A stretch of DNA of 63,735 bases, from positions 1-63,735 of the forward strand of contig BGKB01000258.1 of NCBI GenBank assembly GCA_003116975.1, written 5' to 3'. Numbering within the stretch: position 1 is the first letter of the stretch; each line of letters starts with the position of its first letter. Below the pieces are notes generated by a model, which was given only the letters and a program-made list of their open reading frames with translations, had not been told where the DNA came from and made no database searches. Source of the stretch: Aurantiochytrium sp. KH105 (Eukaryota > Sar > Bigyra > Thraustochytrida > Thraustochytriidae). This document shows positions 1,845-41,014 of this stretch, piece by piece. Made by a program: the position numbers and the translations under genes.

Positions 1845-4298
1845 ATGCTTCACCGATCGAGCTTGGTGACCCGGCGCGTTGGCGTAGTCTTCGTAGCCCT
1901 TGCGTTGCTACTTGCCGCGACGCCTTCGACAGCTCTGCGCACGGACCCGCTCGTCGATTCGTGCGCTCGAGATGAGGCAAACTGCTGCTTCACGGAGTCG
2001 AAATGGCCAAAGCCATCCATGGAATCGCGCTTTCGTTGCGAACCAGACGAGGATGGGAGCTACCCTTGCAGCGTCAGGCTCGCTGTCAGCGACTGGATTG
2101 GGAGCTTTATCAACGTCTACGTTGCCAAGATCTTCATCGAGGAGTTCCTCGGGTATCCCGTCGAGATCACGGCCGATTCCAGCGACTACACGGGGACTGT
2201 CAAGGAGTCAGATACGTACGCTTCGAATGGCACACTGATCGAGCCGAGCGGTATGCGCCGCATGAGCAGCGGAGAGATCGACGTCATTCTTGAATACTGG
2301 CCTTCGGGACATCGAGATAATATTCGCGAGTTCGTGGTCGAGAAGTCTACCATTAAATTGGCAGGCGAAAATGGAATTGAGGGCCGAATCGGATGGTTCC
2401 TGCCCTCATTTGTGGGCGAAGACAATGACCCGGCTCTCGACTACTGGCGTACGCTCACCGACCCGACCAAAGCGAGTCTCTTTCCTCATCCGGCGGCAAC
2501 CGCGGCTTGCTGTCGTTCCAATATGGACCAAGGCGCCAACGCTCCATGTGTCCCGACGGAGGCTCTGGGTGGCACGAAAGTGGCAGATGGAGGCATGGCC
2601 AACGCAACAGCAGAATGCGACGTCTTCTCCGACACGGCGTGGCACGAGATCCCGACCACGGGCGGGCGCTTTCTGGGCGGGAAGCCGACTTGGACGACCC
2701 ATGACGACCAGATTATTCGGAACCTGGGTCTGCCTCTCACTCTCGTCTTGGCAGTGTCGGAGAGCAAGATCATGGAAGAGATCGAGACAGCACATGCATC
2801 GAGAACGCCACTCTTGTTCTATTTCTGGAAGCCGCACGGTGCCTTTCGCATGTACGATCTCGATGACTTTCTGCTGCCGCTCAGCAGCGCGGAATGTCGA
2901 TCGGCGCAGACGTCTGGAGACGCCGACTGCGGGTACCCGATCGAGCTGCTCGCCAAGGCATACTCGGTATCACTGGAACAAAGCAAGCCAGATGTGGCAC
3001 ACTTTGTCGAGTCGATGGTGTTCAACTCGACTGTGCAGCAAGAAGAGATCCACTATGAGCTCTTGGTCAACAGCTCGCGGACGCTTAACGAAGCGGCTTG
3101 TGAGTGGGTCAAGATTAACGAGCAGACCTGGAGGGCCTGGACAGAAAGCGTGGAGAATCGTTATGAAGGTCAAACTTGGCAAGAAGAGATTCTCGAGCCA
3201 ACGGTCATGGCTTGCGACTGCAAACCCGATGGTCTGCGTGATGTCGTGGCCGTGTATGATACTTCTGCATATGCAAAGGACGGCTCTGTGATTATCGAGG
3301 TGGATCCGAGCCCGTGTTCGGAGGCACGTAATGTGTCGCTGTACAAGACCCGCTGGAGCACGATGCTGCTGGAGACCAAGGTACTCAAGGAGGTCCCGTG
3401 CGCTCATGTACCACTTGGGAGCTCGGGTGAGATCATCATTCTGACGCTGGCTTCCATCGCATGGCTCGTGCTCTTGATTTGCCTGGTGTTCGTCGTGGCG
3501 TATCGCAGCCACAAGGCGGTGAAGAGCGCTCGCATCCGTACGCTCATGATTCTCTTGTTTGGCGCAGCGCTGATGAACGGAGCAGAGACGTCTCAAATTG
3601 GCGAGCCAACGCGTGTCAAGTGTGCGATGCGCTTTTCGCTGCTACTCTTTGGCTTCATGTACTTTGTGGGCTCGCTTCTCATCAAGCAGTTCGTCATTGC
3701 TTCGGTGATGAAGCGCGCGCAAAAGTTGAATCGGCGAAAGCAAAGGGGCGGCCAGTTGTTCATGAGGTTTGAGTTTACGATTTGCACGCTCGTGGCTCTC
3801 GCTCTTTTCGCCATCTGGTACGCAGTCGTGGGCTTTGAGCCCGAAGCGGTGGTCGCAGACGTGCTGCTGGACGTCGACGAGCTCGTGTGTCCGACGGACT
3901 CGACGCTGCTGATGCTCATCATTGCCGTGTGCTACTTGCTGATTGTTGTGAGCTGCGTGCTCGCGAGCCAGACGCGAGGTCTTTCGGGGCTGGTGTTCAA
4001 CGAGGGCAAGTTCATGTTGTTTTCAAACTACAATGTGGCTGTGTTGACGGGTCTCTCGCTGTTTGTGACGCTTTCCCCGGGCATGGACGCCTCGCTGAAG
4101 AGCCTGTTCGTTTCATTTTGCATTCTCTTCAGTACGGTGTCGTGCGCGCTTTTGGTGGTTGGCTCGCGCGTGTATGCAGCTGGCTTCAATATCAACGCGA
4201 CGCTTCTCGCCAAGACGGTTGTCACCGCATCAATGAGCGACCAAAGTTCACTCTCAGTAGCTCGCACATCTGTTGCGAGAAGCTCAAAAACCAAGTAA
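1845..4298 (+). CDS. Receptor with glycine-betaine-binding-like ectodomain and class C GPCR 7TM core (paralog 1)
   Basis: Predicted 817-residue plasma-membrane receptor. Residues 1-30 form a signal peptide with a Leu/Ala-rich core. Residues about 55-440 resemble the OpuAC/ProX periplasmic glycine-betaine-binding fold: an Asp-Trp segment near the start, SGEIDVILEYWPSGH, a GIEGRIGWFLPSFV-like stretch, and FYFWKPHGAFRMYDLDDFLLP, the hallmark WxPHxxFxxYDLxxL block. The end also matches (ACEWVKINEQTW). A Cys-rich linker with N-glycosylation sequons follows. Seven hydrophobic segments lie at about 529-780. Class C hallmarks are the TM3 cysteine (RVKCAMRF), the loop-2 cysteine (ELVCPTDS) and FNEGKFMLFSNYN before TM6. 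The likely role is sensing betaine, choline or a similar osmolyte and signalling through G proteins. The ligand is inferred. The nearest neighbour is its near-twin at 5529. The start ATG precedes the signal peptide directly. Confidence 0.88.
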   Translation: MLHRSSLVTRRVGVVFVALALLLAATPSTALRTDPLVDSCARDEANCCFTESKWPKPSMESRFRCEPDEDGSYPCSVRLAVSDWIGSFINVYVAKIFIEEFLGYPVEITADSSDYTGTVKESDTYASNGTLIEPSGMRRMSSGEIDVILEYWPSGHRDNIREFVVEKSTIKLAGENGIEGRIGWFLPSFVGEDNDPALDYWRTLTDPTKASLFPHPAATAACCRSNMDQGANAPCVPTEALGGTKVADGGMANATAECDVFSDTAWHEIPTTGGRFLGGKPTWTTHDDQIIRNLGLPLTLVLAVSESKIMEEIETAHASRTPLLFYFWKPHGAFRMYDLDDFLLPLSSAECRSAQTSGDADCGYPIELLAKAYSVSLEQSKPDVAHFVESMVFNSTVQQEEIHYELLVNSSRTLNEAACEWVKINEQTWRAWTESVENRYEGQTWQEEILEPTVMACDCKPDGLRDVVAVYDTSAYAKDGSVIIEVDPSPCSEARNVSLYKTRWSTMLLETKVLKEVPCAHVPLGSSGEIIILTLASIAWLVLLICLVFVVAYRSHKAVKSARIRTLMILLFGAALMNGAETSQIGEPTRVKCAMRFSLLLFGFMYFVGSLLIKQFVIASVMKRAQKLNRRKQRGGQLFMRFEFTICTLVALALFAIWYAVVGFEPEAVVADVLLDVDELVCPTDSTLLMLIIAVCYLLIVVSCVLASQTRGLSGLVFNEGKFMLFSNYNVAVLTGLSLFVTLSPGMDASLKSLFVSFCILFSTVSCALLVVGSRVYAAGFNINATLLAKTVVTASMSDQSSLSVARTSVARSSKTK

Positions 4299-4960
4299 GC
4301 CTTGCATCATTTGAATGGGCCTGAACATTCTTCTTGCGTTTCATTTCGTAACTATTTCAGAAGAATGTCCTTTATTTGATTCCATTCCGTGTTTTCCCGT
4401 TTAAAATGTGTGCGCCCGATTAGTAGACCAGCAAAGTATTGTCCACACCTGGGAGGCAGGCACCTATGCTTTTGGCGCTCGGGAGCGCAATCTAGCCAAG
4501 GGCTCGATTGCTCGGACCAGGCTTTCGGCTCTGGAACTTGGGCGGTCATGGTTCCTTCCATCTCGGTTATGCGACGTTCCGACCGTTTCAAGGTGCTCGA
4601 CTTTGCTGATCTCTGTATGCCACGGTCTACCATCGGACGAGCTTGCACGAGATCGCCTCCCTCCGTTATCGCACTGCGCGGCGTGTCCTGCGCAGCTGCT
4701 CAAGGGGCCTGGCCATCGGGATCCGATTGACAAACGTGCAAGGCTAGAATGGTTGTTTCTCGCATGCATGGCCTTTCTTTGTGCTCGCCTGAACGGGGAG
4801 AAGACATGGAATCATACAGAGGTCCCATTCGTAGGGACGTGATTTCCTGTTCCCGGCACGGCTGGCGACTCCTTTTGATAAGTTCTTCTGCTGTCTGCTG
4901 CAGGACCCGCTGGAGCCTGGGTCTGACTGTGAACCGGGACAGGCATCGCTGTCCTGTCCA

Positions 4961-5012
4961 AATGGCTGCGGCCGCATGGCTGCGGCCGAATGGCTGCTGC
5001 CGAATGGCTCCA
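4961..5012. repeat. Short tandem repeat, about 13-14 bp unit
   Basis: Four imperfect copies of an ATGGCTGCGGCCGA-type unit in tandem, the last copies reading ATGGCTGCTGCCGA and ATGGCTCC. No coding context. Confidence 0.6.
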
Positions 5013-5096
5013 TCGTACTGAGCATTAGTGTTGCAAGGACGTGCGCCGTAGGCCCGTTCTTCCTTGTCGCCGATACGGAAATTGTAACGGCCTGAT

Positions 5097-5135
5097 TGTC
5101 TATCTGTCTGTCTGTCTGTGTCTCTGTCTGTTTGT
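5097..5135. repeat. CTGT/TCTG microsatellite
   Basis: Imperfect tetranucleotide run of TCTG units in the spacer between the two receptor genes. Confidence 0.75.
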
Positions 5136-5528
5136 TTTGGATTAACGCTTCGGGAAATTGCGACTCGGCGTGCTGTTCGCAACCACGTTGGTCCGCTCGC
5201 TGCTCCAGCGCGCGGTCCGGCGCACGCAAGCAGCGTGGCGCGCGCGATCGACCACAAAAGACTCCAGAGTTTGCATTGCACAATGCGCTCGGTTGTCCTG
5301 CGCTTTGGCCACGTTCGCTGCCTTGACGGAATGAAGCGTGCCACAGTGACGAGCCGCGTATCGATTGATGAATTGATTGCCAAGCGTGGGCGCGCGCGGC
5401 CCCAGCCCATCAAATGTAACATTTAACGGCCCGCTTGTAGGGGCGACGATGCAGAGGTTGGAAGGTAGCCAAGTTGGGACAGCGTGGGTTTTTTCCTGCA
5501 CTGCAAAAGTCTATTGCGCGAGGCGAGT

Positions 5529-7988
5529 ATGCAGCAACGCCTGGCTCAAGCGAGGCGGCGCGGCAGCGGCGTGGCCTTCGTAGTCCTAGCGTTGCTGCTC
5601 GTCGCGAAGCCTGCGACAGCTCTGCGCGTGGACCCGCTCGTTGATTCGTGCGCTCGAGATGAGGCAAACTGCTGCTTCGCGGAGTCGAAATGGCCAAAGC
5701 CATCCATGGAATCGCGCTTTCGTTGCGAACCAGACGAGGATGGGAGCTACCCTTGCAGCGTCAGGCTCGCTGTCAGCGACTGGATTGGGAGCTTTATCAA
5801 CGTCTACGTTGCCAAGATCTTCATCGAGGAGTTCCTCGGGTACCCCGTCGAAATCACGGCCGATTCCAGCGACTACACGGGGACTGTCAAGGAGTCAGAT
5901 ACGTACGCTTCGAATGGCACACTGATCGAGCCGAGCGGTATGCGCCGCATGAGCAGCGGAGAGATCGACGTCATTCTTGAATACTGGCCTTCGGGACATC
6001 GAGATAATATTCGCGAGTTCGTGGTCGAGAAGTCTACCATTAAATTGGCAGGCGAAAATGGAATTGAGGGCCGAATCGGATGGTTCCTGCCCTCATTTGT
6101 GGGCGAAGACAATGACCCGGCTCTCGACTACTGGCGTACGCTCACCGACCCGACCAAAGCGAGTCTCTTTCCTCATCCGGCGGCAACCGCGGCTTGCTGT
6201 CGTTCCGATATGGACCAAGGCGCCAACGCTCCATGTGTCCCGACGGAGGCTCTGGGTGGCACGAAAGTGGCAGATGGAGGCATGGCCAACGCAACAGCAG
6301 AATGCGACGTCTTCTCCGACACGGCGTGGCACGAGATCCCGACCACAGGCGGGCGCTTTCTGGGCGGGAAGCCGACTTGGACGACCCATGACGACCAGAT
6401 CATTCGGAACCTGGGTCTGCCTCTCACTCTCGTCTTGGCAGTGTCGGAGAGCAAGATCATGGAAGAGATCGAGACAGCACATGCATCGAGAACGCCACTC
6501 TTGTTCTATTTCTGGAAGCCGCACGGTGCCTTTCGCATGTACGATCTCGATGACTTTCTGCTGCCGCTCAGCAGCGCGGAATGTCGATCGGCGCAGACGT
6601 CTGGAGACGCCGACTGCGGGTACCCGATCGAGCTGCTCGCCAAGGCATACTCGGTATCACTGGAACAAAGCAAGCCAGATGTGGCACACTTTGTCGAGTC
6701 GATGGTGTTCAACTCGACTGTGCAGCAAGAAGAGATCCACTATGAGCTCTTGGTCAACAGCTCGCGGACGCTTAACGAAGCGGCTTGTGAGTGGGTCAAG
6801 ATTAACGAGCAGACCTGGAGGGCCTGGACAGAAAGCGTGGAGAATCGTTATGAAGGCCAAACTTGGCAAGAAGAGATTCTCGAGCCAACGGTCATGGCTT
6901 GCGACTGCAAGCCCGATGGTCTGCGTGATGTCGTGGCCGTGTATGATACTTCTGCATATGCAGAGGACGGCTCTGTGATTATCGAGGTGGATCCGAACCC
7001 GTGTTCGGAGGCACGTAATGTGTCGCTATACAAGACCCGCTGGAGCACGATGCTGCTGGAGACCGAGGTGCTCAAGGAGATCCAGTGCGCTCATGTACCA
7101 CTTGGGAGCTCGGGTGAGATCATCATTCTGACGCTGGCTTCCATCGCATGGCTCGTGCTCTTGATTTGTCTGGTGTGTGTTGTGGCATTCAGAAAACATG
7201 CAGCTCTTCGCAGCGCGCAGATCAAGACCCTCAACGTTCTTTTGCTCGGCGCAGCGCTGATGAACGGAGCAGAGACGTCTCAGATTGGCGAGCCAACGCG
7301 TGTCAAGTGTGCGATGCGCTTTTCGCTGCTGCTCTTTGGCTTCATGTACTTTGTGGGCTCGCTTCTCATCAAGCAGTATACGATCACCATGGTATTGCGG
7401 CGTACGCGTTACGACCGCCGAAAAGGCTCACGCGGCCAGTTGTTCATGAGGTTTGAGTTTACGATTTGCACGCTCGTTGCTCTTGCTTTTTTCGTCATCT
7501 GGTACGCAGTCGTGGGCTTTGAGCCCGAAGCGGTGGTCGCAGACGTGCTGCTGGACGTCGACGAGCTCGTGTGTCCGACGGACTCGACGCTGCTGATGCT
7601 CATCATTGCAGTGTGCTACTTGTTGATTGTTGTGAGCTGCGTGCTCGCGAGCCAGACGCGAGGTCTTTCGGGGCTGGTGTTCAACGAGGGCAAGTTCATG
7701 TTGTTTTCAAACTACAATGTGGCTGTGTTGACGGGTCTCTCGCTGTTTGTGACGCTTTCCCCGGGCATGGACGCCTCGCTGAAGAGCCTGTTCGTTTCAT
7801 TTTGCATTCTCTTCAGCACGGTGTCGTGCGCGCTTTTGGTGGTTGGCTCGCGCGTGTACGCTGCGAGCTTGAACCTTGACCATGACATGTTTGCCACTAC
7901 GACGACAAGAAGATCAAGGGGGATCTCCAGCACTCCAATAAAACCCAAGCCTGGCCTTGCTTCGAGCTCTGCAATATCGCCTACATAG
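5529..7988 (+). CDS. Receptor with glycine-betaine-binding-like ectodomain and class C GPCR 7TM core (paralog 2)
   Basis: Predicted 819 residues, with the same architecture as paralog 1: signal peptide, OpuAC-like ectodomain, Cys-containing linker and seven helices with the FNEGKFMLFSNYN class C motif. An in-frame ATG also occurs at 5484. I prefer 5529 because it puts the signal peptide at the N-terminus and matches the length of paralog 1. From about 5630 to 7170 it differs from paralog 1 by only about 1% of bases by eye. Three later blocks are sharply different: intracellular loop 1 (about 7178-7245), intracellular loop 2 (about 7379-7438, with a one-codon length change) and the tail from about 7858. 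The tail here is rich in Thr, Ser, Arg and Pro. The predicted role is the same extracellular ligand as paralog 1 with a different cytosolic partner surface. Confidence 0.88.
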   Translation: MQQRLAQARRRGSGVAFVVLALLLVAKPATALRVDPLVDSCARDEANCCFAESKWPKPSMESRFRCEPDEDGSYPCSVRLAVSDWIGSFINVYVAKIFIEEFLGYPVEITADSSDYTGTVKESDTYASNGTLIEPSGMRRMSSGEIDVILEYWPSGHRDNIREFVVEKSTIKLAGENGIEGRIGWFLPSFVGEDNDPALDYWRTLTDPTKASLFPHPAATAACCRSDMDQGANAPCVPTEALGGTKVADGGMANATAECDVFSDTAWHEIPTTGGRFLGGKPTWTTHDDQIIRNLGLPLTLVLAVSESKIMEEIETAHASRTPLLFYFWKPHGAFRMYDLDDFLLPLSSAECRSAQTSGDADCGYPIELLAKAYSVSLEQSKPDVAHFVESMVFNSTVQQEEIHYELLVNSSRTLNEAACEWVKINEQTWRAWTESVENRYEGQTWQEEILEPTVMACDCKPDGLRDVVAVYDTSAYAEDGSVIIEVDPNPCSEARNVSLYKTRWSTMLLETEVLKEIQCAHVPLGSSGEIIILTLASIAWLVLLICLVCVVAFRKHAALRSAQIKTLNVLLLGAALMNGAETSQIGEPTRVKCAMRFSLLLFGFMYFVGSLLIKQYTITMVLRRTRYDRRKGSRGQLFMRFEFTICTLVALAFFVIWYAVVGFEPEAVVADVLLDVDELVCPTDSTLLMLIIAVCYLLIVVSCVLASQTRGLSGLVFNEGKFMLFSNYNVAVLTGLSLFVTLSPGMDASLKSLFVSFCILFSTVSCALLVVGSRVYAASLNLDHDMFATTTTRRSRGISSTPIKPKPGLASSSAISPT

Positions 7989-8456
7989 ATTGGTCAATGT
8001 GTTCATTTTTGTTTTCAGATTCTCTCTGTGTATACACGTCCACAGCATTCGTTGCCGGCATTGCGTCGATTCCGTTCTGCGATGTGCCGGATGACCCAAG
8101 CAAGGCGCAACGCGGCCCGTGCCAATCGGAAGCTCACTCAGGCAGGCTGTGTGTCTTCTGTGTCAGCGTTCCAACCAAACCCAACCCCGCTCGCCCTTTT
8201 CCGCACAGCGCCCCCGACAGCCGCGCTGTGCACATTCTCAACACACACCCTTTGCTTTGCCCAGCACCAACATGGCAACCCGAACCCAACTTGAAGGGAA
8301 ACGAGGAGACTCGAAAGACCGGCACCGCCCCGGGCGAACGGTGAAGTCAAGCGGCCGCACGTTAGAGGACGAACGTCCCTCCCTCCCTACCTCGAAACCT
8401 CCAATCCTTTGGCCCCGCAGCGCGCGCGTGAAGTGCTCTGGCTGCTCGGAGACAAG

Positions 8457-8508
8457 AACCGCAAGAAACGCAAGAAACGCAAGAAACGCAAGAAACGCAA
8501 GAAACGCG
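8457..8508. repeat. AAGAAACGC tandem repeat
   Basis: About five exact copies of the 9-mer CAAGAAACG in tandem. Confidence 0.85.
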
Positions 8509-8889
8509 AGCGGCTGCGGCGGCCGGCCGTCGGCGATCCTCCCTCCGCTGCAGAGTTCATGGCATGTCAGGCGGCCAGAAGAACGAACTTCAAGGCGGGC
8601 CGGCGTGCATGCACGGCGCGGCGAGCGAGCGAGCGAGCGACCAGTGATGCGTGCGTGCGACCTCTGCATGGACAAGTACGGACGGGCGTGTGCGTGCGTG
8701 TCTCGGATCATGAGTTGGACGTACTTTCTTTCTCTCTCTCGCGCACGGCCTCGAGCGGCGACAGCGATAAGAGGCGAAGCGAAGCGATGCGGAGCGACGC
8801 CGCGCCTCTCTCGAGCCACCCGCCGCGGCGGGTTTCTGACCACTTGAGATCGCTCGAGGCCGAGAAAAGATGACGAATGAGGGAGATGC

Positions 8890-8957
8890 CGCACGAGACG
8901 AGACGCGAGACGGGACAAGACGGGACAAGACGAGACGAGACGAGACGAGACGAGACC
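8890..8957. repeat. GAGAC / GGGAC pentamer repeat
   Basis: A run of GAGAC-type pentamers with GGGACAAGAC variants. Purine-rich on the plus strand. Confidence 0.8.
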
Positions 8958-9239
8958 CAGCTGGCCGACGGCGCCCGCAGCCGCCCGCCTGCTCGCCCGC
9001 ACATGCGCGCGTGCGTGCAGTGCTCGCGAGCCTCGCTTGCGCGCTGGCCTCGGCCTCTCCCCGTCTGCGCCAGGGCACAGCTCGATCGATCCTCAGCCAT
9101 CGTTCGCGGGGCGACCGGGGCCGGGCCGCGCGATTTTTTCCGGCCCCTGGCGGGAGGGACCGGGTTTCACGGACGGTCTTGCCAATCTAATCTGGCTGGG
9201 CTTATCTGGCTCAGAGTCCAAGTTTGCATTTCCTTCGTT

Positions 9240-9363
9240 CATGCGTGCGTGCGTGCGTGCGTCCGTTCGTCCTTTCGATCAGGGTGTCAAGGAAGAAGGA
9301 CGCCGCCACGGCCGAGAGCAAGAGCGCGAGCAAGAGCGAGCGAGCGAGCGAGCGAGCAAGCGC
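9240..9363. repeat. GCGT and GAGC tetramer tracts
   Basis: GCGTGCGT tetramers near 9243-9262 and GAGCGAGC tetramers near 9336-9358, separated by non-repetitive sequence. Confidence 0.7.
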
Positions 9364-9487
9364 ACGCGCGCGGCCTGAGCCTGGCGGCGAGCCAGGCGCA
9401 CGCATGCAAGCATGAGCGATGGCTGGCTGCAGCGCCGTAATAATAATAATAACTCGTCAAGGAAGCGAGGTTCTGCGTGCGTATGTC

Positions 9488-9550
9488 CGTGTGTGTGTGC
9501 GCGCGCGCGCGCGCTTGTGTGTGTGTGTTTATTGATTGATTGATTGTTTG
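9488..9550. repeat. GT/GC dinucleotide tract followed by GATT repeats
   Basis: An alternating purine-pyrimidine run (GTGTGTGTGTGCGCGCGCGC then TGTGTGTGTG), of Z-DNA-forming type, followed by TTGATTGATTGATTG. Confidence 0.85.
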
Positions 9551-10684
9551 ATTGATAGTAGTAGGCTTATAGGCCCCTAGTACTAGGCCTGATTGTTTTT
9601 TTTTTCGTTCACGTTATGTGTGTGTGGTGAGATCTCGATGGCGAGCTCGTCGCCAGGCCCTGGAAGCACCCGCGCTGCTCGCGACCTGGCTGGCCGCCAC
9701 TGGCCGCCGCGTGCGGAGTGGCCGCCTCCGGGGCCAGCCCGCGTCTACCCTGGCGGCGGCTTCGAGGCTGCCCGAGCTCGCGCGATCCGAGACCGAGCGA
9801 GCAGGAGCAGTGGCAGCTGCACTGCTGGCTGCAGCACGCAGCAGCAGCGCGGAGGGAAAGAGAAAGTGCGCGCCCGCCGCTTCCAGGTCGCGGTTCCGGT
9901 TCCGGCCGGACCAGAGCCGTTCCTCTTCGTGCTGCTCCCGCGCGGGAGCAGAACCACAGGACGCGCGCGATGGCCGCGAGCTGAGGCCGCCGGCCTGCGC
10001 CGCGTTCATCTTGCGCACGTTCGATCGTTCGATTCGTTCGTTCGTTCGTTGGTCTGTTCGTACGCGCGAGCAGTGACAGTGAGTGCAGTGCAGGTTGTTC
10101 GTTCGCCAAACCCGATCGTTCGCCGGCGATCGTTCGGTCAAGCGCGAGCGCGCGCGAGAAGCCTCCGTTCTGACGGAACGGCGAGCAGAGTTGGATAAAA
10201 TGTATGCCGACGGAAAGTGCTCGTGTCCTTGCGTGCCGTTCGATCCGGTTCGAAGCAGCTCGTTCCTTTGGCTGGCGCTTCATGTGATGCGCTTTCCTCT
10301 ACACTTGCGGCACGCGACGAACTGCGAAAGCGACACTGCGACTGCGCCTTGGTTGACGCAAAGCCGGGTCGCTCGCTCCTGCATGCACGCTCGCTCGCTC
10401 GCTCGCACGCGCATCCGCGCACGCCATCGCACTCCACGCCGGCACGCATGCACGCACGCGTGCGCCGGGCGGGTTCTAGTTGAAACAGCCAAAGCCGGAG
10501 TCGCGAGGCGGCCGCCCCCCGTGAGTGACCTCGCGTCCCGGCCGGTTCCGGCCCGCGCCGCAGCCGTGCCGTTCCTGCGAGCCTTGCCTTGCCTTGCCTT
10601 GCCTCGCGCTGCGCTGTGTGCAGGTGCCGCGCGGTGCTCCGACGGCGGGAGGGAGGGCGCGGCGACAGCGACCAAGAGTGGCGG

Positions 10685-10735
10685 CGGGGCGAGGCGAGGC
10701 GAGGCGAGGCGTCGCGTCGCGTCGCGTCGCGTCGT
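10685..10735. repeat. AGGCG then GTCGC pentamer tracts
   Basis: AGGCG is repeated about four times and runs directly into GTCGC repeated about five times. Confidence 0.8.
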
Positions 10736-10867
10736 GTGCTTTCGGAGCTTGCTTGCTTCAAGTTGTGTTGGTTGCGGCGCCGTCCGCGGGGGTAGATTAG
10801 ATTAGGTTACTATTAGAGTTGGCTGTGGATGCCGTCGCCACCTACACCGAGTTTTCTCACCCCCCGA

Positions 10868-10945
10868 GACCGGTCCGGTCTGGCTTCGCTGCGGGCCCCA
10901 TGTGGGCATGAATCCCCGCTACTATGGGTAGCGGCCCCGATAAGA
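10868..10945. other. Clustered inverted repeats (possible hairpins)
   Basis: GACCGGTCCGGTC near 10869 and CCGCTAC-TATGG-GTAGCGG near 10915-10933 could form stems. I could not match this to a known RNA class, so it is recorded only as structure-prone DNA. Confidence 0.3.
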
Positions 10946-11168
10946 CACATCACGTATGTCCCAGTGACGGCGTTCTGCATGAAGGCGGCAGGAGGGAGGA
11001 AGGGGAAGAAAGGAGGTAAGGAGAGAGGGGAGGAAAGAAAAGCTGCGGCTGCGGAGGGCGCAGGTGTGGGGTCCGTAAGGGGGAGGCGGCTGGAAAAGAA
11101 AAGGGGGAAAAGAAAAGGAGAGTGGAGGAAAGAAAAGGAGAGGAGAAGGAGGCGTGGGAGGAAAGCGC

Positions 11169-11196
11169 AGATAGATCGATCGATCGATCGATCGAT
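11169..11196. repeat. GATC tetranucleotide repeat
   Basis: A run of (ATCG/GATC) units, self-complementary on both strands. Confidence 0.85.
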
Positions 11197-11486
11197 GCTC
11201 GACCGTAAAAAATCGGTCCGAGGCCGCTCGGACATGCCGCTGCAGCTTCAGCTAGCGGCGCTGGCCGGCGAGCGATCGGTCGGCCGCCATGCGAGCCGCC
11301 TGGCGGACGACGCGTAGAAGGTGCATCGAGGTATGCGGGCGGAGCAGGCTGGTAGCTAGTTTCGCCAGGGTTTCTAGATGACCTGGCCTTGGCTGACTAC
11401 CGCTTTTTTTCTTAATTTTTTTTTCTCGATGTAGGATACACCTGTGTGGCGATCGCGATCTTCCGTGGCCGGAGGCGGCAGTCCAC

Positions 11487-11545
11487 CTCCATCCATCCAT
11501 CCATCCCTCCATCCCGTCCATTCCTCCATCCACACCATCCGTCCA
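11487..11545. repeat. CCAT/TCCATCC tract
   Basis: Imperfect TCCATCCATCC repeats. Confidence 0.7.
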
Positions 11546-11633
11546 TTCATCTGCGCAGTGCAGACGCACGACCATCCTCCGTCCATTCGTGCGGCCGTTC
11601 GCGCGTCCGGCCGTTGGCGTCCGAGCGCGCGCG

Positions 11634-11722
11634 AGAGCGCGAGAGATCGAGAGATCGAGATCGAGAGATCGAGATCGAGAGCGAGAGCTAGAGAGCGAGA
11701 GAGCGAGAGCGAGCGAGGCGGT
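11634..11722. repeat. GAGATC / GAGAGC purine-rich repeat
   Basis: Imperfect GAGATC and GAGAGC hexamers with GAGC tetramers. Strongly purine-biased on the plus strand. Confidence 0.75.
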
Positions 11723-12183
11723 GCAGTCTCGCAGCAGCGCCGGAGAGCCAGGAGCGCTCGCCTTCTTTCCCTTCAAGTTGCTCTCCTTTCCTTCCCTTTC
11801 ATTGCTTTCCTTGGCTTGGCTTGGCTTGGCGTTCTATTCCATACGAAAAAGCTGCTCTTTCGCCACCGGTTGCCGCTTCCGTGTTTTTTTTGTTTTCTTT
11901 TCCCGGTTCGACCGCCCCGCAGCCGCCTTTTCTTCCTGCCGCGGCGGCGCGTGCACGACGGGACGCCGGCGGAAGAGCACAGCACGTGCAGTGGCGATCC
12001 GGAGGCGACGCGTGCGAGCAGAGAAAGCTTGCTTGCTCGCCCTCTCTCTCTCTCTCGGTCGCTCGCGCACTTGTAGCAAAACCGCTTCCTCTCTCTCGCT
12101 GCGCTGCGCTGTTGCGTCGGAGCCCTGGGCGAGCGAGAGAAAGCGGGCGACGCGAGGCGAGGCGACGCGAGGCGACGCGCACC

Positions 12184-14571
12184 ATGAGGGCAGCATCGGC
12201 GGCGGCAGCGGCGGCGCTGCTAGTGGTTATGCTGATCGCGAGCGCGACGGCGCAGTTGGCAGATCCGCTCATGTACTCGTGCGCCAAAGATGAGGCCAAC
12301 TGCTGCTTCGACGCCGACTGGGAGAAAAAGGCCGCCTTCAGGTGCGAGCCCGACGAAGACGGCACCTACCCGTGCTCCATTAAAATCTCCATTAGCGCGT
12401 GGGCAGGCAGCTTCGTCAACGTCTACCTGGCCAAGATCTTCATCGAAGAGTTCCTTGGCTACCCCGTCGAAATCACAGCCAACTTTTCTGACTTCTCCGG
12501 AACCGTCGCCGAGCAGAGCACGAACACCACCCCGGGCGTTTGGGAACTCATGGCTTCGGGCGAAATCGACGCCAATCTCGAGTACTGGCCCTCCGGACAC
12601 CAGGCCAACATCCAGGAATACGTCATCGACCAAGGCGTCGCCGTCACAGCGGGACAGAACGGCCTCGAGGGCCGCATCGGATGGTACATCCCCTCGTACA
12701 TGCTGGACACAGACCCGTCCCTTGAATACTGGCGTGAACTCGGTGCCCAGTCTTCCCTCTTTGACGACTCCGCAACTACGCGCCCCTGCTGCATGAAGGA
12801 CATCGAAGACCAGGACGAAAGCCTCCTGCCCTGCATGGCCTCAGTCGAGTACGGCGGCTCCTCTACCGACTACGGCAACTTCAACACCTCCGAGAGTTGT
12901 ACTGACCCAGCCACCCAGAGCGTCACCGTGAACCCCAAGCCCCGCTTCCTCGCCGCCGTCGAGGACTACTCGCAACACGACGCCCAAATCATCAAAAATC
13001 TTGGCCTCGACTTCTCGGTCCAATTCTCCGGTTCCGAGGAGAACTCGGTCCAGGCCGCTCTGGACGCCGACGAGAATGAGACACCCCTGCTCATGTATTT
13101 TTGGGCCCCCCATGGCCTTTTCCAAATGGCCAACTACACTTACGTTCTGCTACCCATCAGTACCCCCGAGTGCGTCGAGGCAGAGGCAAGTGGCAACGCA
13201 GATTGCGGCTACCCCACAGATCTGCTTGCTAAGGCGTACTCGACGGCCTTTGAGGAATCCAAGCCTGATGCCGCGCAGTTCATTACTGCCATGCAGTACG
13301 AGAACAACACGCAGCAAGAAATTATGCTCGCGGCCCTCATGGGAGATTCCCCGCCCTCGCTCCTCAATGTTACCTGCGATTGGGTCAAGACCTACACGTC
13401 CACCTGGGAGACCTGGACGAGCGCTGTAGAGACCCAGTTTGCCAACCAGACCTGGAAGGACGAGGATCTCGAGCCTACCTACGTCGCCTGCCCTTGCAAT
13501 GCCGATGCCACGCGCGACGTCGTCGAGATCTACAGCACCTCGGAATACATTGACGACGGCTACGTCACCATCGACGTCGACCCGAGCCCGTGCACGTCGG
13601 AACGTAGCTACAGCACCTACCGCACGCGCTGGACGACGCGCGAGCTGCCCACGGAAGTATACGAAGTTATCGACTGCGCCTACGTTCCCGAGGCTAGCGT
13701 GGAGCGCAGCGTCATCATCGCGCTTGCCGGTGCCGCCGTCGGCATCAATATTCTCTGCATGCTCGGCGCCTTTATCTTCCGCAACCATGCCGCAGTGCGC
13801 ACCGCGCGCCAAAAGACGCTCATTATCATGCTTGTCGGCGGCTCTCTGCTCAACATCGCGGGTATCTTCGAGATCGGCGTGCCCACTTCGTACAAGTGCG
13901 GCCTCCGCTTCTCTTTTATGCTCTTTGGCTTCTTCAACTTTGTCGGAACTCTTCTCGTCAAGCAGTTTACCATTGTGTCTCTCATGAACAGCAAGTACAT
14001 CATGGACAACCGCCAGACACAGCAGGCTACTTTTTTCCTGCGTTACGAGCTCGTCTCCGCCTTTCTCTTTTGCGGCCTCTGGCTCATCATCTGGACCTTT
14101 GTCGTTGGCTTTGACCCCGTCGCGGAGCAGGCCTCTACTTCGGTCGATGTTGAAGAGTACGTTTGCCCCACCAACACCCCTCTGCTCATGCTCATTATTG
14201 CCCTTTGCTACATCACTGTCGTCATCAGCTGCCTCCTGGCCAACCAGACGCGCAACTTCAAGGGTCTCATCTTCCGCGAGGCAAAGTTCATGCTCTTTTC
14301 CAACTACAACGTGGCCATCCTCACGGCCTTTTGTCTCTTTGTCGTCTTCACTGACGGAATCTCGCCGACGCTCAAGAGCCTCTTCGTCTCCGTCTGTGTT
14401 TTCTTTTGCACCGTCACTTGTGCTCTTCTCGTCGTTGGCACGCGTGTTTACGCCGCGTACCGCAACCTGCCCACGGACAAGATTATGGACACCAGCTCCC
14501 TCGTCGGCGGCTCTATGGTTGGCAGCAGCGAGCACTCGTCGCACGGTGTTAGGGCCGGGGTCGCTTTGTAA
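12184..14571 (+). CDS. Receptor with glycine-betaine-binding-like ectodomain and class C GPCR 7TM core (paralog 3)
   Basis: Predicted 795 residues. The frame is open from 11821, but I start at the ATG at 12184 because it begins a good signal peptide (Ala-rich, ending SATAQ) and aligns with the N-termini of the paralogs. The ectodomain has the same OpuAC-like blocks: ASGEIDANLEYWPSGH, GLEGRIGWYIPSYM and YFWAPHGLFQMANYTYVLLP. Seven helices lie at about 509-765, with the class C motif FREAKFMLFSNYN and paired cysteines (SYKCGLRF, EEYVCPTN). It is clearly diverged from paralogs 1 and 2 throughout. Its loop 1 (FRNHAAVRTARQKTL) is closer to paralog 2 than to paralog 1. Codon use shifts towards C-ending codons. 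Predicted membrane sensor; the ligand is inferred. Confidence 0.88.
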   Translation: MRAASAAAAAALLVVMLIASATAQLADPLMYSCAKDEANCCFDADWEKKAAFRCEPDEDGTYPCSIKISISAWAGSFVNVYLAKIFIEEFLGYPVEITANFSDFSGTVAEQSTNTTPGVWELMASGEIDANLEYWPSGHQANIQEYVIDQGVAVTAGQNGLEGRIGWYIPSYMLDTDPSLEYWRELGAQSSLFDDSATTRPCCMKDIEDQDESLLPCMASVEYGGSSTDYGNFNTSESCTDPATQSVTVNPKPRFLAAVEDYSQHDAQIIKNLGLDFSVQFSGSEENSVQAALDADENETPLLMYFWAPHGLFQMANYTYVLLPISTPECVEAEASGNADCGYPTDLLAKAYSTAFEESKPDAAQFITAMQYENNTQQEIMLAALMGDSPPSLLNVTCDWVKTYTSTWETWTSAVETQFANQTWKDEDLEPTYVACPCNADATRDVVEIYSTSEYIDDGYVTIDVDPSPCTSERSYSTYRTRWTTRELPTEVYEVIDCAYVPEASVERSVIIALAGAAVGINILCMLGAFIFRNHAAVRTARQKTLIIMLVGGSLLNIAGIFEIGVPTSYKCGLRFSFMLFGFFNFVGTLLVKQFTIVSLMNSKYIMDNRQTQQATFFLRYELVSAFLFCGLWLIIWTFVVGFDPVAEQASTSVDVEEYVCPTNTPLLMLIIALCYITVVISCLLANQTRNFKGLIFREAKFMLFSNYNVAILTAFCLFVVFTDGISPTLKSLFVSVCVFFCTVTCALLVVGTRVYAAYRNLPTDKIMDTSSLVGGSMVGSSEHSSHGVRAGVAL

Positions 14572-35368: not shown

Positions 35369-38300
35369 CTACTTGTTCTCTGCATTGCTAACACACGCAC
35401 CATTCGACCCAGGCTTCCCAAAGGAAGGCTGCGGAGGCACCCCGATGAAGTTGCGATCCACAGCACGCAGCAAGCGTGCACGGTAATTGCTTGGCTCAAT
35501 CACCGTCGGCTCGAGCTGACCCGCAATCATGCCGGCACGCTTCACATTCGACTCAATCATCTTGCGATAATTGTAAAGCTGCAAAAAGTCAATAATGCCC
35601 GTCTGCAACACCGGTGCGCTCTCCTCCGCCCCAGACTCCACTCCCTCGTTGCCATCGTCGTCCCCGCCAAGCCCCATTCCCCAGTGATCTTCCGGCGCGC
35701 GGGGACCACGCGCCGGGATCCCGAGGAGCAACGAGTAGTCTACAATTTCATCGTGCTCGAGGAACTCCGTGTCGCGCTCAATGGTCTCGCGGAGCTCGCG
35801 CTTTGCGCTCGGAGTCATCGACAGAGGGACCCCATTCGTGTACGCTCGAAAGTTGCGATCCAAAAGAACCTCACCTTTCTTGGGCGCTGCCACAAGCCGA
35901 TTCCGAAAGTTACCCTTGAGATCGAACTTGGCTTCAAAGACGGCATCCGGAGGGAAAAGGTTCTCCATGACAATGTAATGCGTCTTGGACTGCCGCTCGG
36001 GTGCACTCGGAGGCGGAGGAGGAGGGGGAGAAGGAGCTTGCGAAACCTGAGGAGGAGGAGGAGGAGGAGGAGGAGCTGCAGTCGCGGACGCCCCCCCCTT
36101 CATCTCTGCCTCCGGACCGCCCGAGTCCGCTTTCGACCCATCCGCCGCCACGGACGCCGCACCAGGCCCACTTTCCTTGGTTGCTGCCATGACTGCAGTG
36201 ACCCCGCTGACGCCATCGTCGCCAAGCTTGGCCTTAGTCTGTGGGCCAGATGCACTCGCTCCGGTCTTTTTGCTTGCAGCAACATCCACGCTACTCGCAT
36301 TGCTCCCCACGCTGACACTCGGAGTGAGCAAGCCAGAGGCCGCCCCACCAGAATCATGGCCTGCTGCCAACAACGACGACGAGGTTGCCAACTTGGCAGA
36401 GCCCCTTCGCGGAGTGCTTGCGGTTTTCCCATCCGAAGTCGTCGCCGCCACGCTAGCCGTCGCTGGGCGTACAATTCCAATCTCTCCCTTGGATCGCTTC
36501 GCAGAAATCCCCGTCGCTCCTTCAGTGCTAGCAAGGCCACCCACTGTCGGCGTTAGCCGCGGCAAAGCCTGTGAAAACGAATCGTCGTCCCCCGCACTAG
36601 TAGTAGCATTGGCGGCACTGGCAGTAGTAAACGTCCCGCCTGCATCGTCGCGCGAGTGTCGCAGGCTCAGCGCGTCCAATGCAGAGTCAACGACAGGGTC
36701 CGGCTTGGAGGAGCTCGCCGTGGTCTTAGTCGCTTCCCGAGGCGATGTCTCAGAGCTCGGTGCGCCGCGGTCGGCCCTCTTTGGGCCATCCGTTTCGTGG
36801 ACCTCTGCAACATTCGAGGCGAGCGTGACGCGTCGCTCCGGAGGCAAGGCCCTCACGGGACCTAGAGGAGGCGTCGGCGGCGCCTGCAAGACACGCAGGG
36901 CCTCCTCCGCTCGTGATTCTTGACAAAGACTCTGCCCCGAACCATCTTGCTGTTGCTGCTGGTGCTGCTGTTGCTGCTTACCAAGCAACGGGTGCGGCGT
37001 CGGAGAACCCGTTGGCGAAGGTACATCCGCATGCTGGTGCCGCGGCGTTTGCGAGATCTTGCGCATGTTCAGCTCTTGCGACAAGGCCTGCACAGAGCCA
37101 GCGTCCAAGTCCGCAAGATTTAGTCGCGAGGACACTTTGGAACTCATTTGCTGCACCACGCTCGAAGGCCCTTCCTTGGAAGTCACCGTGTACACACCGA
37201 CAATCTTGAGCAGCGCGCTTGGGAGATGCTTCTCGCTGACATTAGCGAGGTGATTAAAGTAGCTGGGAGCCAGCGAGAGAAACATGTCAAGCTCCTCGGA
37301 AGAGATTGACTTGACGATGAAACGCCCATCGCGGCACTTGAGAAACACGGAGCGAGACTTGCCTCCCGTGGCCCGCCAGTGATCGCACCGCGAGAGTGAC
37401 TCGAGAAAGGTCATCTCCGGATCGAGACGCCCTCCCTTGGCCCGCCGCCAGTTGAGATGCGCCTGCCGCAGCGCGAAAAACTGCAACGGACAGTACACTT
37501 TGACTGAGAAATGCAAGTTGAGCTGCTCCAGCCCATGGGTGTCGCTAAAGTCGAGCGCGAGCGCCGAGCTGCGAGGATCAACGAGCTGCGCTCGCATCAC
37601 CTTGGGCCATCTACCGCCCTGGAAGTTGTCCATTTGATTGCGCTCCTCTGCCAGCGCAAAGAGGCCTTGCCGGTGATCCATCGAGTTCAAAGCATGCGCA
37701 ATCCATGACGTGGGCTCATCGTCGTAGACAAAAACAATACGATTTCCAAAGCCTTCTGGGAGACTGGGTCGTCCGCGCAGCAAAAAGCCCAATGGAAGGT
37801 CCACCGGATCCAGAAGCGAGGCCGATGCGCGGTGTTCGCGCATGGATCGGCTCTTCACGGGGTCACTTGTAGTGCTCAGCGAGTCTTGCGCGTCGAAGAC
37901 GCGGAGTCGTGTCGGGACCGGCAAGGCCCCGCTGCTGCTGGATTTCGGTTTGTGGTGAGGGACGCTCGTAGAGCGCGTGAGATCCAGCGGCGTAGGCGCG
38001 GAATCGCCCCCATCCTCGGAAGAATCGTCCTTCAAATCGCTGTCTGAACAAGTGCGCGGACGCCTTAGGTCCCCGCGCGATGGCACGGAAGGGCTCTGGC
38101 GCGCCTCAGACTCGCGCAGACTCGCCAGTGCCTTGTTCCACTTGTTCACGCTAAGGATTATGTTCCGACGCACGCGGTACAGCTCCAAAACACTTAGCTC
38201 GTGCAAGTGCTCCTCGTCCTTGAGAGAGCCACGAAGCGCTGCCACGCCGTCGCGAACATCTGAAATGAGCTTTTCGGCGCCAGCCAGAGAATACTCTGCC

Positions 38301-40982
38301 TCGGCAATAGCATCCACATAGGGGATAAGTTTCTGGTCCAGAAATGCAGTTTCGACCACGCCGAGCGTGTCGACAAGCTCGTCATGCTTACCTCGGACCG
38401 TCTCCGTGAGCCAACGCTCCGCGTACCTCGGGAGAGGACGTGGCTTCTCCGGGTCCGAGGCATAGAGATTTGTCTCAAAGGGCACAAGCTTTTCGTACTC
38501 GAAGCCCGCAACTTGGCCACGCAGCTCATAATACGTAACGTAGTCCTGAAAGATAGAGTGCTTGCAAGGTGGGGGCAAATGCGTCGAGTCGAACAGAGAC
38601 GAGACATTGCGGGCCTTGTAGAAAAGCTTGAGCTGCAACCACCGCGAAAAGGAAAGACTCTCCGCATCCTTGGAAAGGACCTTGTACTCGGTGGTCGCGT
38701 CGCACTTGAGGCACTCGGACCAGGTGAGGATGGGAAGGTTCTTGATGGGCAGGGCGCGCGATCGACGATTTGACTCCGAATTCTGCAGCCTGCGGATTCC
38801 ACTTGCCACGTACTCTCGTCGAATGTTGGCGAGACTATCGCGCAGCGACGCATGCGTCTCATCGTTCTTGTTGAGAGAGCCCGTGAACACGTACACTCGG
38901 CCTTCGCCCACGCAGTACACTGCGTCGGCAGCGCCAGTGGTTCCCCCAAAGGGTCCACCATCTTCGCCTCCGTCCGAAAAGTCTGTGTTCTGAGGAGCGT
39001 CCGGATCGTCTTCCGAGGCGAGGTTGCCAGCACCTGCAGCTTGCGATCCGCCGGCAAAGTTGTCACCAGTAACGCCGCTGTTGCTCCGGTAAAGCGGCGG
39101 TGTCGAGAGCGACGAGCCAGGGTACCCTGCGGATCCAGAGGGTCCGATACTGCTCGCGTCAGAGGTGGTTTGCTGGCCGGCGGCACGCGTCGCCGAGGCG
39201 ACACTCGAGGCGGCCAAATTGCCCACCGCAATCGTAGAAGACGGCCCAGAGCGCTGTGCGTGGCGCGGGACGTTGGGCGCAGACTTGAAGCAGCGAAAGC
39301 GCAAGTAGTCGCCAAGAGTGAGATCGCTGCCAATGGTGCCAAAGCTGAGATGCTTAAGCTCGGCTGGGTGCATCTGGTCTTTCTCGCAGATGGAGACCTT
39401 GCAAACCTGCATGTGATCTGCCTCGAGCATGGCATCTTCTTGGGTAATGAGAGCGGGTTTCGTGAGACGATCCTCCCCGATAAAGACACCAATGTCTCGG
39501 AAAAGGCGGTTCTGCTGCCGGATCGTGTACGTGGTGGTAATGAGGCTGGTAAGAATAGCCTCCATGTGGCGCAAGGTGGTCGGGCTGGCGCCGCGAAGAC
39601 ACACTGAGGCGCCGAGGCGAGGCGGGCAACCCTCAAAAAACATGAGTGTCTTGCGCGGCGGTCCTCGCTGGTTTCGTGGCGCAATTTGCTCAAATTGTTC
39701 GCCCTTTTGTGCCTCTGTAAGCTTTGTTGAAAAGGTTCGCATGGTCCAGAGCTTGCATGTTCCGCGGGGGTCCCAATCCTCGAGAGTGTCCGAGTTGCTG
39801 GGGAGAATGCTCATGAGGTCAGTATTAGGCAAAAGGTAGGCTCCCGTCAGACGCGAGATGCGTTCGAGCAGACGCATCTGCACGTTGATCACTACGGAGA
39901 CACCGGCCTCGAGCAATAGCTCTTGGGCAATGCGCGAGACGCTGCTGCCCACAACGAGAAGGTCCACACCCATGGAGGTGATCTTGTGCACCACAAGCTC
40001 CATGTAGTGCTGCTCTTGCTCGCGCAGCGTGTCGAGAGAGCTGATGCGACTGCGCTCCCGCGAAAACTCGATCGCGCCCTCGAGAAGCAAAATGCGCGGT
40101 TGCACAATGTGCTGGCGCATGAGACGGTGTACGACGTGCCGTTGGCAAACGACGCCGTTTAGCAGCATGCTCTCGCCAATGCTGCCCCCGGGAATCGAGA
40201 CGAGCTTGCAGTAGCCATCAAAGTCCATGTTGTATGGGCGCACAGCGCTGCAGAATTGCTTGCCAATACGCGTCAGCGTCTGTTTCCACTCGGTCTGCAC
40301 CTCGTCGCTGAGGATGATGCTTGGCCGCTTGTTTCGCAGAGCGCTCACGCGCGAAGCCACAAGCCTTTGCACGGCCTTATCGAGACGTCTGCCGAGAATG
40401 TCTCGCTGGTACCGCGTGACGGCTTCTTTGTCGCCGAGGTTCAAGGCATCGCTGGCTGCGTGAGCTTTGAGCAAACTATCGACAGACTGCATGGGCTCCA
40501 CTAGCGTATTGCGGGATGCGATGCGCTTGAAGCTGTTGCTACGCATCTTTTCGTCGACGGCTTCGTGGCGCTCGCTTGGCTTGCCATCCCAGCTATTGCT
40601 TCTCGCGCGGAGGCCGTGCACGTTTGATCGTTGCAGCGTAGCTCGCTTGCTAAAGCGCGAAGGCCCGAGACGGGCAATGCCGGCTGCTCCGGTTCCGTCG
40701 TCGTCCATGTTAAGAATGTCGACTAGATCCATGGGTTCCAGGAGCCGGCGGCTTGATGCACGGCCCGCAGACTTTGCGAGCGACGGACGCCGTCCATTTC
40801 GGCGCGATTCTGCGGCGTCAGGTGTCGACGGAGCTCTTCCCGGGGGCTCTGTGCCTGTGCCGCCTTGCGTCGCTGCGCGCGCACGACCACTACCATTAAG
40901 TATGGCATTGACTTCGCTGCCTCCAACATGATCACGGTGATATTTTTGATGTCGATGATGACGATCGTCAGCGCCGTCTTCA

Positions 40983-41014
<32 letters not shown>

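Follow-up and report, generated by a model that had tools for sequence, protein, structure and literature searches.

Class C receptors with a betaine-type binding ectodomain in the thraustochytrid Aurantiochytrium: candidate sensors of a quaternary-ammonium osmolyte

The stretch of DNA analysed here (hereafter the window) is the entire contig BGKB01000258.1 (C258; 63,735 bases) of Aurantiochytrium sp. KH105, a thraustochytrid whose genome assembly comprises 76 Mb in 367 contigs. It harbors three tandem genes, named B, C and D, and each of them encodes an OpuAC-type ectodomain followed by a class C seven-transmembrane (7TM) core in one open frame. The usual account of class C receptors is that a type I flytrap for amino acids was joined to a 7TM core long ago. 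The best explanation of the three genes is probably a different union, in which a betaine-type solute-binding protein (SBP) and a class C G-protein-coupled receptor (GPCR) would together sense a quaternary-ammonium osmolyte. A ligand of the quaternary-ammonium class is itself likely; glycine betaine as the ligand proper is a tentative choice that falls just short of an even chance, and the receptors are good candidates for glycine betaine sensors. The features of the three genes are as follows.

1845..4298, forward strand: receptor gene B (P0001, 817 amino acids; open reading frame, Pfam and homologues), with a hydrophobic N-terminal signal, an OpuAC-type ectodomain, a cysteine-bearing stalk, a class C 7TM domain and a short C-terminal tail
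1959..3164, forward strand: gene B ectodomain (residues 39-440), a solute-binding domain of the type II family with a cysteine-rich insert (Pfam; profile alignment to 4xz6 and 7yle); cage residues W84, W152, W283, W328 and Y326, plus H156 (column check and profile alignment, weak in its N-lobe part)
3429..4178, forward strand: gene B class C seven-helix domain (about residues 529-778), with the FNEGKFMLFSNYN motif and the C593/C682 pair (Pfam, alignment, PDB matches)
5529..7988, forward strand: receptor gene C (P0002, 819 amino acids), with an ectodomain almost identical to that of gene B and divergent intracellular loops 1 and 2 (ICL1, ICL2) and C-terminal tail
5646..6851, forward strand: gene C ectodomain, 402 codons long, which differs from that of gene B at 2 amino acids
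7116..7862, forward strand: gene C class C seven-helix domain
12184..14571, forward strand: receptor gene D (P0004, 795 amino acids), 46-47% identical to B and C
12277..13443, forward strand: gene D ectodomain (residues 32-420), with W73, W135, H139, Y262, Y305 and W307
13708..14430, forward strand: gene D class C seven-helix domain

In all three proteins Pfam places OpuAC (PF04069; E 1.1e-16, 1.1e-16 and 3.3e-17; 61.7-63.4 bits against a cut-off of 21.2) upstream of 7tm_3 (PF00003; E 9e-29, 5.5e-27 and 2.8e-18; 67-101.3 bits against 33.5), far beyond chance, the gene D values being those of its P0003 version. The OpuAC match is split into two stretches in P0001, P0002 and P0004 alike. This bears out the initial annotation, which had described three tandem genes with OpuAC/ProX-like blocks and a seven-helix domain of class C type, that is, a class C core joined to an ectodomain of a type II family. 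The motifs that it quoted (SGEIDxxLEYWPSGH, GxEGRIGW, YFWxPHGxFxM and FxExKFMLFSNYN) are found in the sequence, as is the cysteine pair that it placed in transmembrane helix 3 (TM3) and loop 2 (C593/C682 in P0001, C572/C661 in P0004), which is invariant in the eight rows of each of two family alignments. K614 (the TM3 lysine) and E720 and K722 of the FNEAK-type TM6 motif are, like C593 and C682, invariant in eight family rows, and we take K614 and E720 to play an ionic-lock role. The three open reading frames (ORFs) run uninterrupted from ATG to stop, with preferred starts at ATG 5529 for gene C and ATG 12184 for gene D. Hydropathy in a 19-residue window gives an N-terminal hydrophobic stretch, resembling a signal peptide, and seven more clusters in P0004, and the N-terminal stretch and six clusters in P0001 and P0002, where TM2 lies below the threshold.

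Among PDB sequences, the ectodomain matches 4xz6 (TmoX) and the 7TM part matches GABBR2 and mGlu4 first. The receptors share the 7tm_3 core, the cysteine pair and an FNEAK-like motif with metazoan mGlu, GABA-B and CaSR, but these carry a type I ANF flytrap. No Pfam row for ANF_receptor or Peripla_BP_6 is present at E up to 1 in P0001, P0002 or gene D, and none for the cysteine-rich NCD3G domain in the three receptors, which have another cysteine-bearing stalk instead. NCD3G is missing from GABA-B as well (a passage of PMC12716839), and because published members vary in their flytrap, the lack of a type I one does not exclude class C membership by the 7TM. The OpuAC domain is covalently joined to a 7TM receptor and, in this respect, departs from the betaine-binding proteins of ATP-binding cassette (ABC) importers; no Pfam row for an ABC permease or ABC_tran was found among nine further window ORFs scanned. 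The domain architecture itself is beyond doubt. Judged by the 7TM, class C membership is secure, and coupling to G proteins is likely.

A protein search of the genome identified eight full-length copies without any inner stop: four on contig C34 (minus strand), three on C258 and one at the end of C204. Presumed alleles are 95.1% (A), 94.6% (B) and 93.6% (C) identical in DNA, and those of gene D are 98% alike in protein. The simplest reading is an apparently diploid genome in which each of two haplotypes has a tandem array of four genes (A, B, C and D), three of them (B, C and D) in the window; the cluster of three genes originally proposed holds for the window, but the assembly suggests four per haplotype. 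The nearest named protein, called “Metabotropic glutamate receptor-like protein B”, comes from another thraustochytrid, Hondaea fermentalgiana, and is 89% identical to P0001 over 66% of it and 99% identical to P0004 over 97%. Sequence matches place a family of such receptors in Hondaea and in other eukaryotic sources.

It is extremely improbable that the fusion is an artefact, whether of bacterial contamination or of two genes read as one. Annotation of the array is indeed fragile, since a public Hondaea model (P0005, 1303 amino acids) seems to merge a B-type ectodomain and first helices with a D-type receptor, and probably represents a collapsed tandem array. Against an artefact stand the open frames of all eight genomic copies, the eukaryotic genes of C258 (for example TIMELESS, PIP5K and ZPR1), and the presence of both domains in six homologues besides P0005 (P0006-P0010 and P0020), including an MMETSP transcript called complete. 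The objection that ectodomain and 7TM might be separate transcripts is likewise countered by the single transcript of a relative, P0008 (“complete len:811”), which encodes both halves.

The ectodomain profile has eight PDB matches, all of them binding proteins of the betaine, choline, trimethylamine N-oxide (TMAO) or dimethylsulfoniopropionate (DMSP) type or an ABC subunit containing one, and the fold is very likely type II. Homology extends to TmoX (4xz6; E 3.8e-22) and DmpX (7yle, taken as DmpX by the fit of its residue numbers to the pocket in PMC10030565; E 5.7e-13), with good alignments of the C-terminal lobe (66.9 and 44.5 bits). DmpX reads DMSP with four tryptophans and Y200 (PMC10030565); its W35, W84, W152, Y200 and W202 align with P0001 W84, W152, W283, Y326 and W328, and its E113 with I182. 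All four cage tryptophans of DmpX therefore have counterparts in the receptors, one being a tyrosine in gene D (Tyr262, at the third cage position). The TmoX pocket comprises W55, W102, F106, Glu131, W177 and W222 (PMC8918994), and W102, F106, E131, W177 and W222 align with P0001 W152, H156, I182, W283 and W328, W55 lying beyond the aligned part; the glutamate is numbered E122 in Table 2 of PMC10087775 versus Glu131 in PMC8918994, and 4xz6 has Glu at 131. TmoX and DmpX, which are class-F substrate-binding proteins, share the aligned cage tryptophans with the receptors, but are soluble transporter parts with no 7TM and with Glu where the receptors have Ile. In the pocket of E. coli ProX (W65, H69 as carboxyl ligand, W140, G141, C142 and W188; PMC10087775, Table 2), the pair W65-x3-H69 is matched by spacing to W152-x3-H156 of P0001.

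Conservation was counted over 12 eukaryotic rows and 193 other rows, the latter partly pattern-selected for WPSGH. W152 is present in every row (12/12 and 193/193), and W84 in 11 of the 12 eukaryotic rows, one row being truncated. W328 (11/12 and 164/193), H156 (8/12 and 192/193) and I182 (10/12 and 193/193) are also widely kept; W283 is found in 10 of the 12 eukaryotic rows, with Y and F in the rest, and in 119 of the 193 others, 72 of which have Phe.

The nearest bacterial sequences are SBPs of the WPSGH type from Chloroflexota and Acidimicrobiia, which reach 43% identity in the aligned core. Among the best 80 of 169 loci from a genome scan, which are mostly Chloroflexota and Acidimicrobiia by title, identity is 30-38%; a tblastn search of plasmids gave about 24-27% among the matches listed. 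ProX works with an ABC importer of the ProV/ProW type. Like ProX, the WPSGH-type proteins have the W-x3-H pair of the receptors, but their gene neighbourhood indicates that they act with importers of the ProV/ProW type. Local tblastn (E 1e-20, up to 4 kb on each side of the SBP gene) found a ProV-like ATPase near 61 of the 80 loci, a ProW-like permease near 48, choline dehydrogenase relatives near 30 (29 at >=65% identity, that is, at least 65%, and one at 33%), a sarcosine-oxidase-type protein near eight and an MttB-like protein near two, with some neighbour of the types sought near 71. Two of these loci (L129 and L130), of equal length, range and match, look like one sequence. All three dehydrogenases scanned (two from Acidimicrobiia and one from the Sva0996 marine group) pass the betA equivalog cut-off. 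One scanned ATPase is above the proV subfamily cut-off and below the ChoV and ProV equivalog cut-offs, and one double permease is above the ChoW and ProW cut-offs with its two copies summed.

Some relatives show other arrangements. Among those of bacterial type, P0012 (654 amino acids) has two tandem OpuAC domains on a single chain, and P0013-P0018 are of similar length; in P0043 a protein-kinase domain precedes the SBP domain. P0024, P0027, P0038 and P0111 are annotated with OpuAC and, on the same chain, with PF13407, a family of periplasmic SBPs of the sugar type. In an Anaerolineales locus (L070, 1155-2753, minus strand), a methyltransferase with a below-cut-off match to the trimethylamine-corrinoid family lies near a betaine-type SBP.

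Several points weigh against a betaine reading of the pocket. Alignment of the N-lobe is weak, at 18.3 bits for TmoX and, for DmpX, at 6.6 bits, which is not significant by itself. The placement of W84 and W152 is therefore partly a motif fit, and the ProX structure 1r9l matched the C-terminal lobe only. Since gene D has Tyr at the W283 position and 4 of the 12 eukaryotic rows have Gln or Met in place of H156, relatives need not all share one ligand. The bacterial loci were partly chosen by the pattern LE[VY]WPSGH, the query genes of the neighbourhood count were drawn from the same loci, the counts stand without a random-locus control, and flanks are approximately full in 44 of the 80 loci and shortened in 36. 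An adjoining choline dehydrogenase speaks equally for choline and for betaine.

The cage residues together with the bacterial gene neighbourhood make glycine betaine or choline the best guess for the ligand, and an onium carboxylate such as glycine betaine appears to be the best fit to the pocket. DMSP and TMAO would fit less well and are ranked below glycine betaine because the Glu of DmpX and TmoX is Ile182 here and His156 lies at the carboxylate position of ProX. The osmolyte type of ligand proposed in the initial annotation is thereby kept as the best guess, with DMSP, which it had listed, less likely than glycine betaine. It is quite possible, if somewhat doubtful, that these are real class C GPCRs with another onium or osmolyte ligand, such as choline, proline betaine, DMSP or TMAO: the cage alone reads only a methylated onium group, the tyrosine that DmpX uses for DMSP aligns with Y326, and a close choline dehydrogenase relative is found in 29 of the 80 bacterial loci. 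Against the individual candidates, the DmpX E113 and TmoX E131 position is Ile in 10 of the 12 eukaryotic rows, P0001 has His in the place of TmoX F106, and ChoX has D45 two residues after the first Trp (PMC10087775, Table 2) where P0001 has Gly86, by motif placement and not by alignment.

A divergent gene on contig C3 (L069:1219-5001), with a match on C19, encodes OpuAC-like lobes, an EGF-like segment and 7tm_3; its receptor has no Pfam row for OpuAC at E 0.001. It has changed W328 to S, H156 to Q, Y326 to S and W283 to F, so that loss of the cage can occur, and one could imagine that the ectodomain binds no ligand at all and acts as a structural or dimerisation module. This is very unlikely for the main family, which keeps the cage at 38-60% overall identity to P0004.

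A tree of the ectodomain (11 receptor-type rows, including P0026 and the C3 receptor, and 40 bacterial rows; mixture model) places the receptor ectodomains on one side of a branch supported at 99/96, with the bootstrap not quite settled, and at 0.94-0.98 by FastTree. The C3/C19 ectodomain joins them only on a very long branch. A cysteine-rich insert between the lobes is common to the receptor rows except C3 and is missing in the bacterial rows inspected. P0026 was considered as a bacterial sister and dropped, as its cysteine insert suggests a eukaryotic exon. The tree fits a single capture of the ectodomain from a bacterial choline/betaine-type SBP, but its direction depends on how the tree is rooted and on how the family is spread among bacteria.

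In the mixture-model tree of the 7TM part, nine receptors share a single branch (98/97). P0020, an MMETSP transcript of 761 amino acids, has an ectodomain of the same family (41% identity to P0009), a Gln at the His position of W-x3-H and no cysteine-bearing stalk, and its 7TM belongs to a separate class C branch (98/96), where it joins four receptors from the genome of the window (37-40% identity). Forcing this 7TM together with the other OpuAC receptors is rejected by the approximately unbiased (AU) test (p 5e-5), the group having been named after the first tree. If the P0020 transcript, a single record, is not chimeric, the ectodomain would have moved between 7TM cores. The C3/C19 receptor may or may not share its 7TM origin with the family (AU p 0.55 when forced together). 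A first 7TM tree (LG+G4+F) joined the family to L018 and L037 at 100/100. As read from their presumed alleles L017 and L036, L018 has a type I domain by Pfam and L037 a sub-cut-off match only. This grouping vanished under the mixture model, and a direct replacement of an L018/L037-type flytrap by OpuAC was dropped for that reason; the AU test (p 0.31) neither supports nor rejects a union of the family with L018/L037.

Genes B and C were compared in both haplotypes (window 1845-7988 and the C34 copies L014 and L015), with region borders set from hydropathy and alignment. In the window haplotype they differ at 6 bases (2 amino acids) over the 402 ectodomain codons, and at 44% of bases in ICL1, 44% in ICL2 and 58% in the C-terminal tail; in the other haplotype they differ at 2.2% in the ectodomain, 9% in ICL1, 50% in ICL2 and 59% in the tail. 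Among ectodomain sites, 52 are common to B and C within a haplotype, none are common to alleles and 33 are other; the corresponding counts for ICL2 and the tail are 1, 91 and 18. Such a pattern appears to be the mark of gene conversion that homogenises the B and C ectodomains in each haplotype and leaves ICL2 and the tail gene-specific. An assembly artefact is unlikely, because the split in ICL2 and tail is present in both haplotypes, and selection for distinct coupling of B and C may be at work.

In the mechanism that we propose, a quaternary-ammonium osmolyte, with glycine betaine as the first candidate and choline as the second, would enter the cleft, where W84, W152, W283 and W328 would hold the cation and H156 the carboxylate. 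The two lobes would then close, the stalk would relay closure to the 7TM core, and the core would activate one or more of the G-alpha proteins of the cell. As paralogues B and C share the sensor and differ in their intracellular faces, a single ligand probably feeds at least two outputs. The full scenario, a GPCR family sensing glycine betaine or choline through a binding protein captured from a bacterial transporter, with a mobile ectodomain cassette on two class C cores, with gene conversion that keeps the B and C sensors alike while loop 2 and tail stay distinct, and with the osmolyte signal split into several outputs as a result, is tentative and stands somewhat below an even chance.

The genome contains 69 7tm_3 matches, all above cut-off and many as similar-scoring pairs; according to a published comparison, IPR017978 is an enriched GPCR domain in thraustochytrids (PMC6050695). 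Eighteen of the 69, the C3 receptor included, were scanned with Pfam, mostly as sequences trimmed some 1.5 kb upstream of the 7TM. Five of them (L017, L019, L020, L025 and L043) show a type I domain above cut-off, either ANF_receptor or Peripla_BP_6, so type I flytraps coexist with type II ones in this genome. Peripla_BP_6 is below cut-off in L036, PBP_like_2 is at cut-off in L061, sCache_2 is just above it in L039 and just below it in L045, and eight of the 18 show 7tm_3 only. G-alpha matches are above cut-off in 27 of 46 cases; G-alpha genes lie in clusters on contigs C245 and C314, and one of these genes has a TGA in frame in each of its two presumed alleles. BCCT-type transporters also occur, with a tandem triplet on each of two contigs. 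The nine other ORFs of C258 scanned are of eukaryotic kinds in Pfam, also including Dzip-like and lysine methyltransferase domains and an M41 protease with a Yme1-like N-terminus. One of them (35372-41893, minus strand; 2174 amino acids) unites FYVE, chaperonin and PIP5K domains and presumably resembles the PIKfyve kinases.

The receptors are not a new superfamily, and the statement in the initial annotation that such receptors were unreported does not stand. OpuAC was described in six Glutamate-family GPCRs of Allomyces macrogynus (AMAG_01750, 04252, 14324, 14326, 15836 and 17562; Krishnan et al. 2012, PMC3251606), the only paper of the searched open-licence literature in which the OpuAC and class C pair was found. 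These fungal receptors have PF04069 on a class C receptor as here; the passages that describe them give no cage or ligand analysis. Around half of the class C GPCRs of anaerobic gut fungi bear type II SBP ectodomains (PMC5168858, 2016), again a type II flytrap on a class C core, but the paper likens theirs to the binding proteins of sugar uptake. In a 2025 survey of choanoflagellate receptors (PMC12716839), the main text contains neither “periplasmic” nor “solute-binding”. It is unlikely that the thraustochytrid and Allomyces receptors stem from one ancient fusion: the domain pair is the same, but no Allomyces-named row is among the matches listed (120 of 243 in one list, most rows being nameless), and the ectodomain has seemingly moved between 7TM types once, which makes separate captures plausible. 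No report of a thraustochytrid class C GPCR or of an Aurantiochytrium mGluR-like receptor was found in the same open-licence literature. As far as these searches reach, the new elements are the family in thraustochytrids, its cage of betaine type, the gene neighbourhood in bacteria, the second 7TM core that carries the ectodomain, and the mosaic structure of paralogues B and C.

If a type II betaine-type flytrap indeed works on a class C core, that core accepts other flytraps, and the building of receptors from bacterial binding proteins becomes directly testable. Paralogues B and C, alike in their sensor and unlike on the intracellular side, would be a natural experiment in the specificity of coupling. 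Thraustochytrids are heterotrophs widespread in the sea, and glycine betaine is reportedly, going by the title of the 2007 work of Jakobsen et al., a principal compatible solute of Schizochytrium-type members; a betaine sensor could therefore link osmotic state or decaying algae to the behaviour of these organisms.

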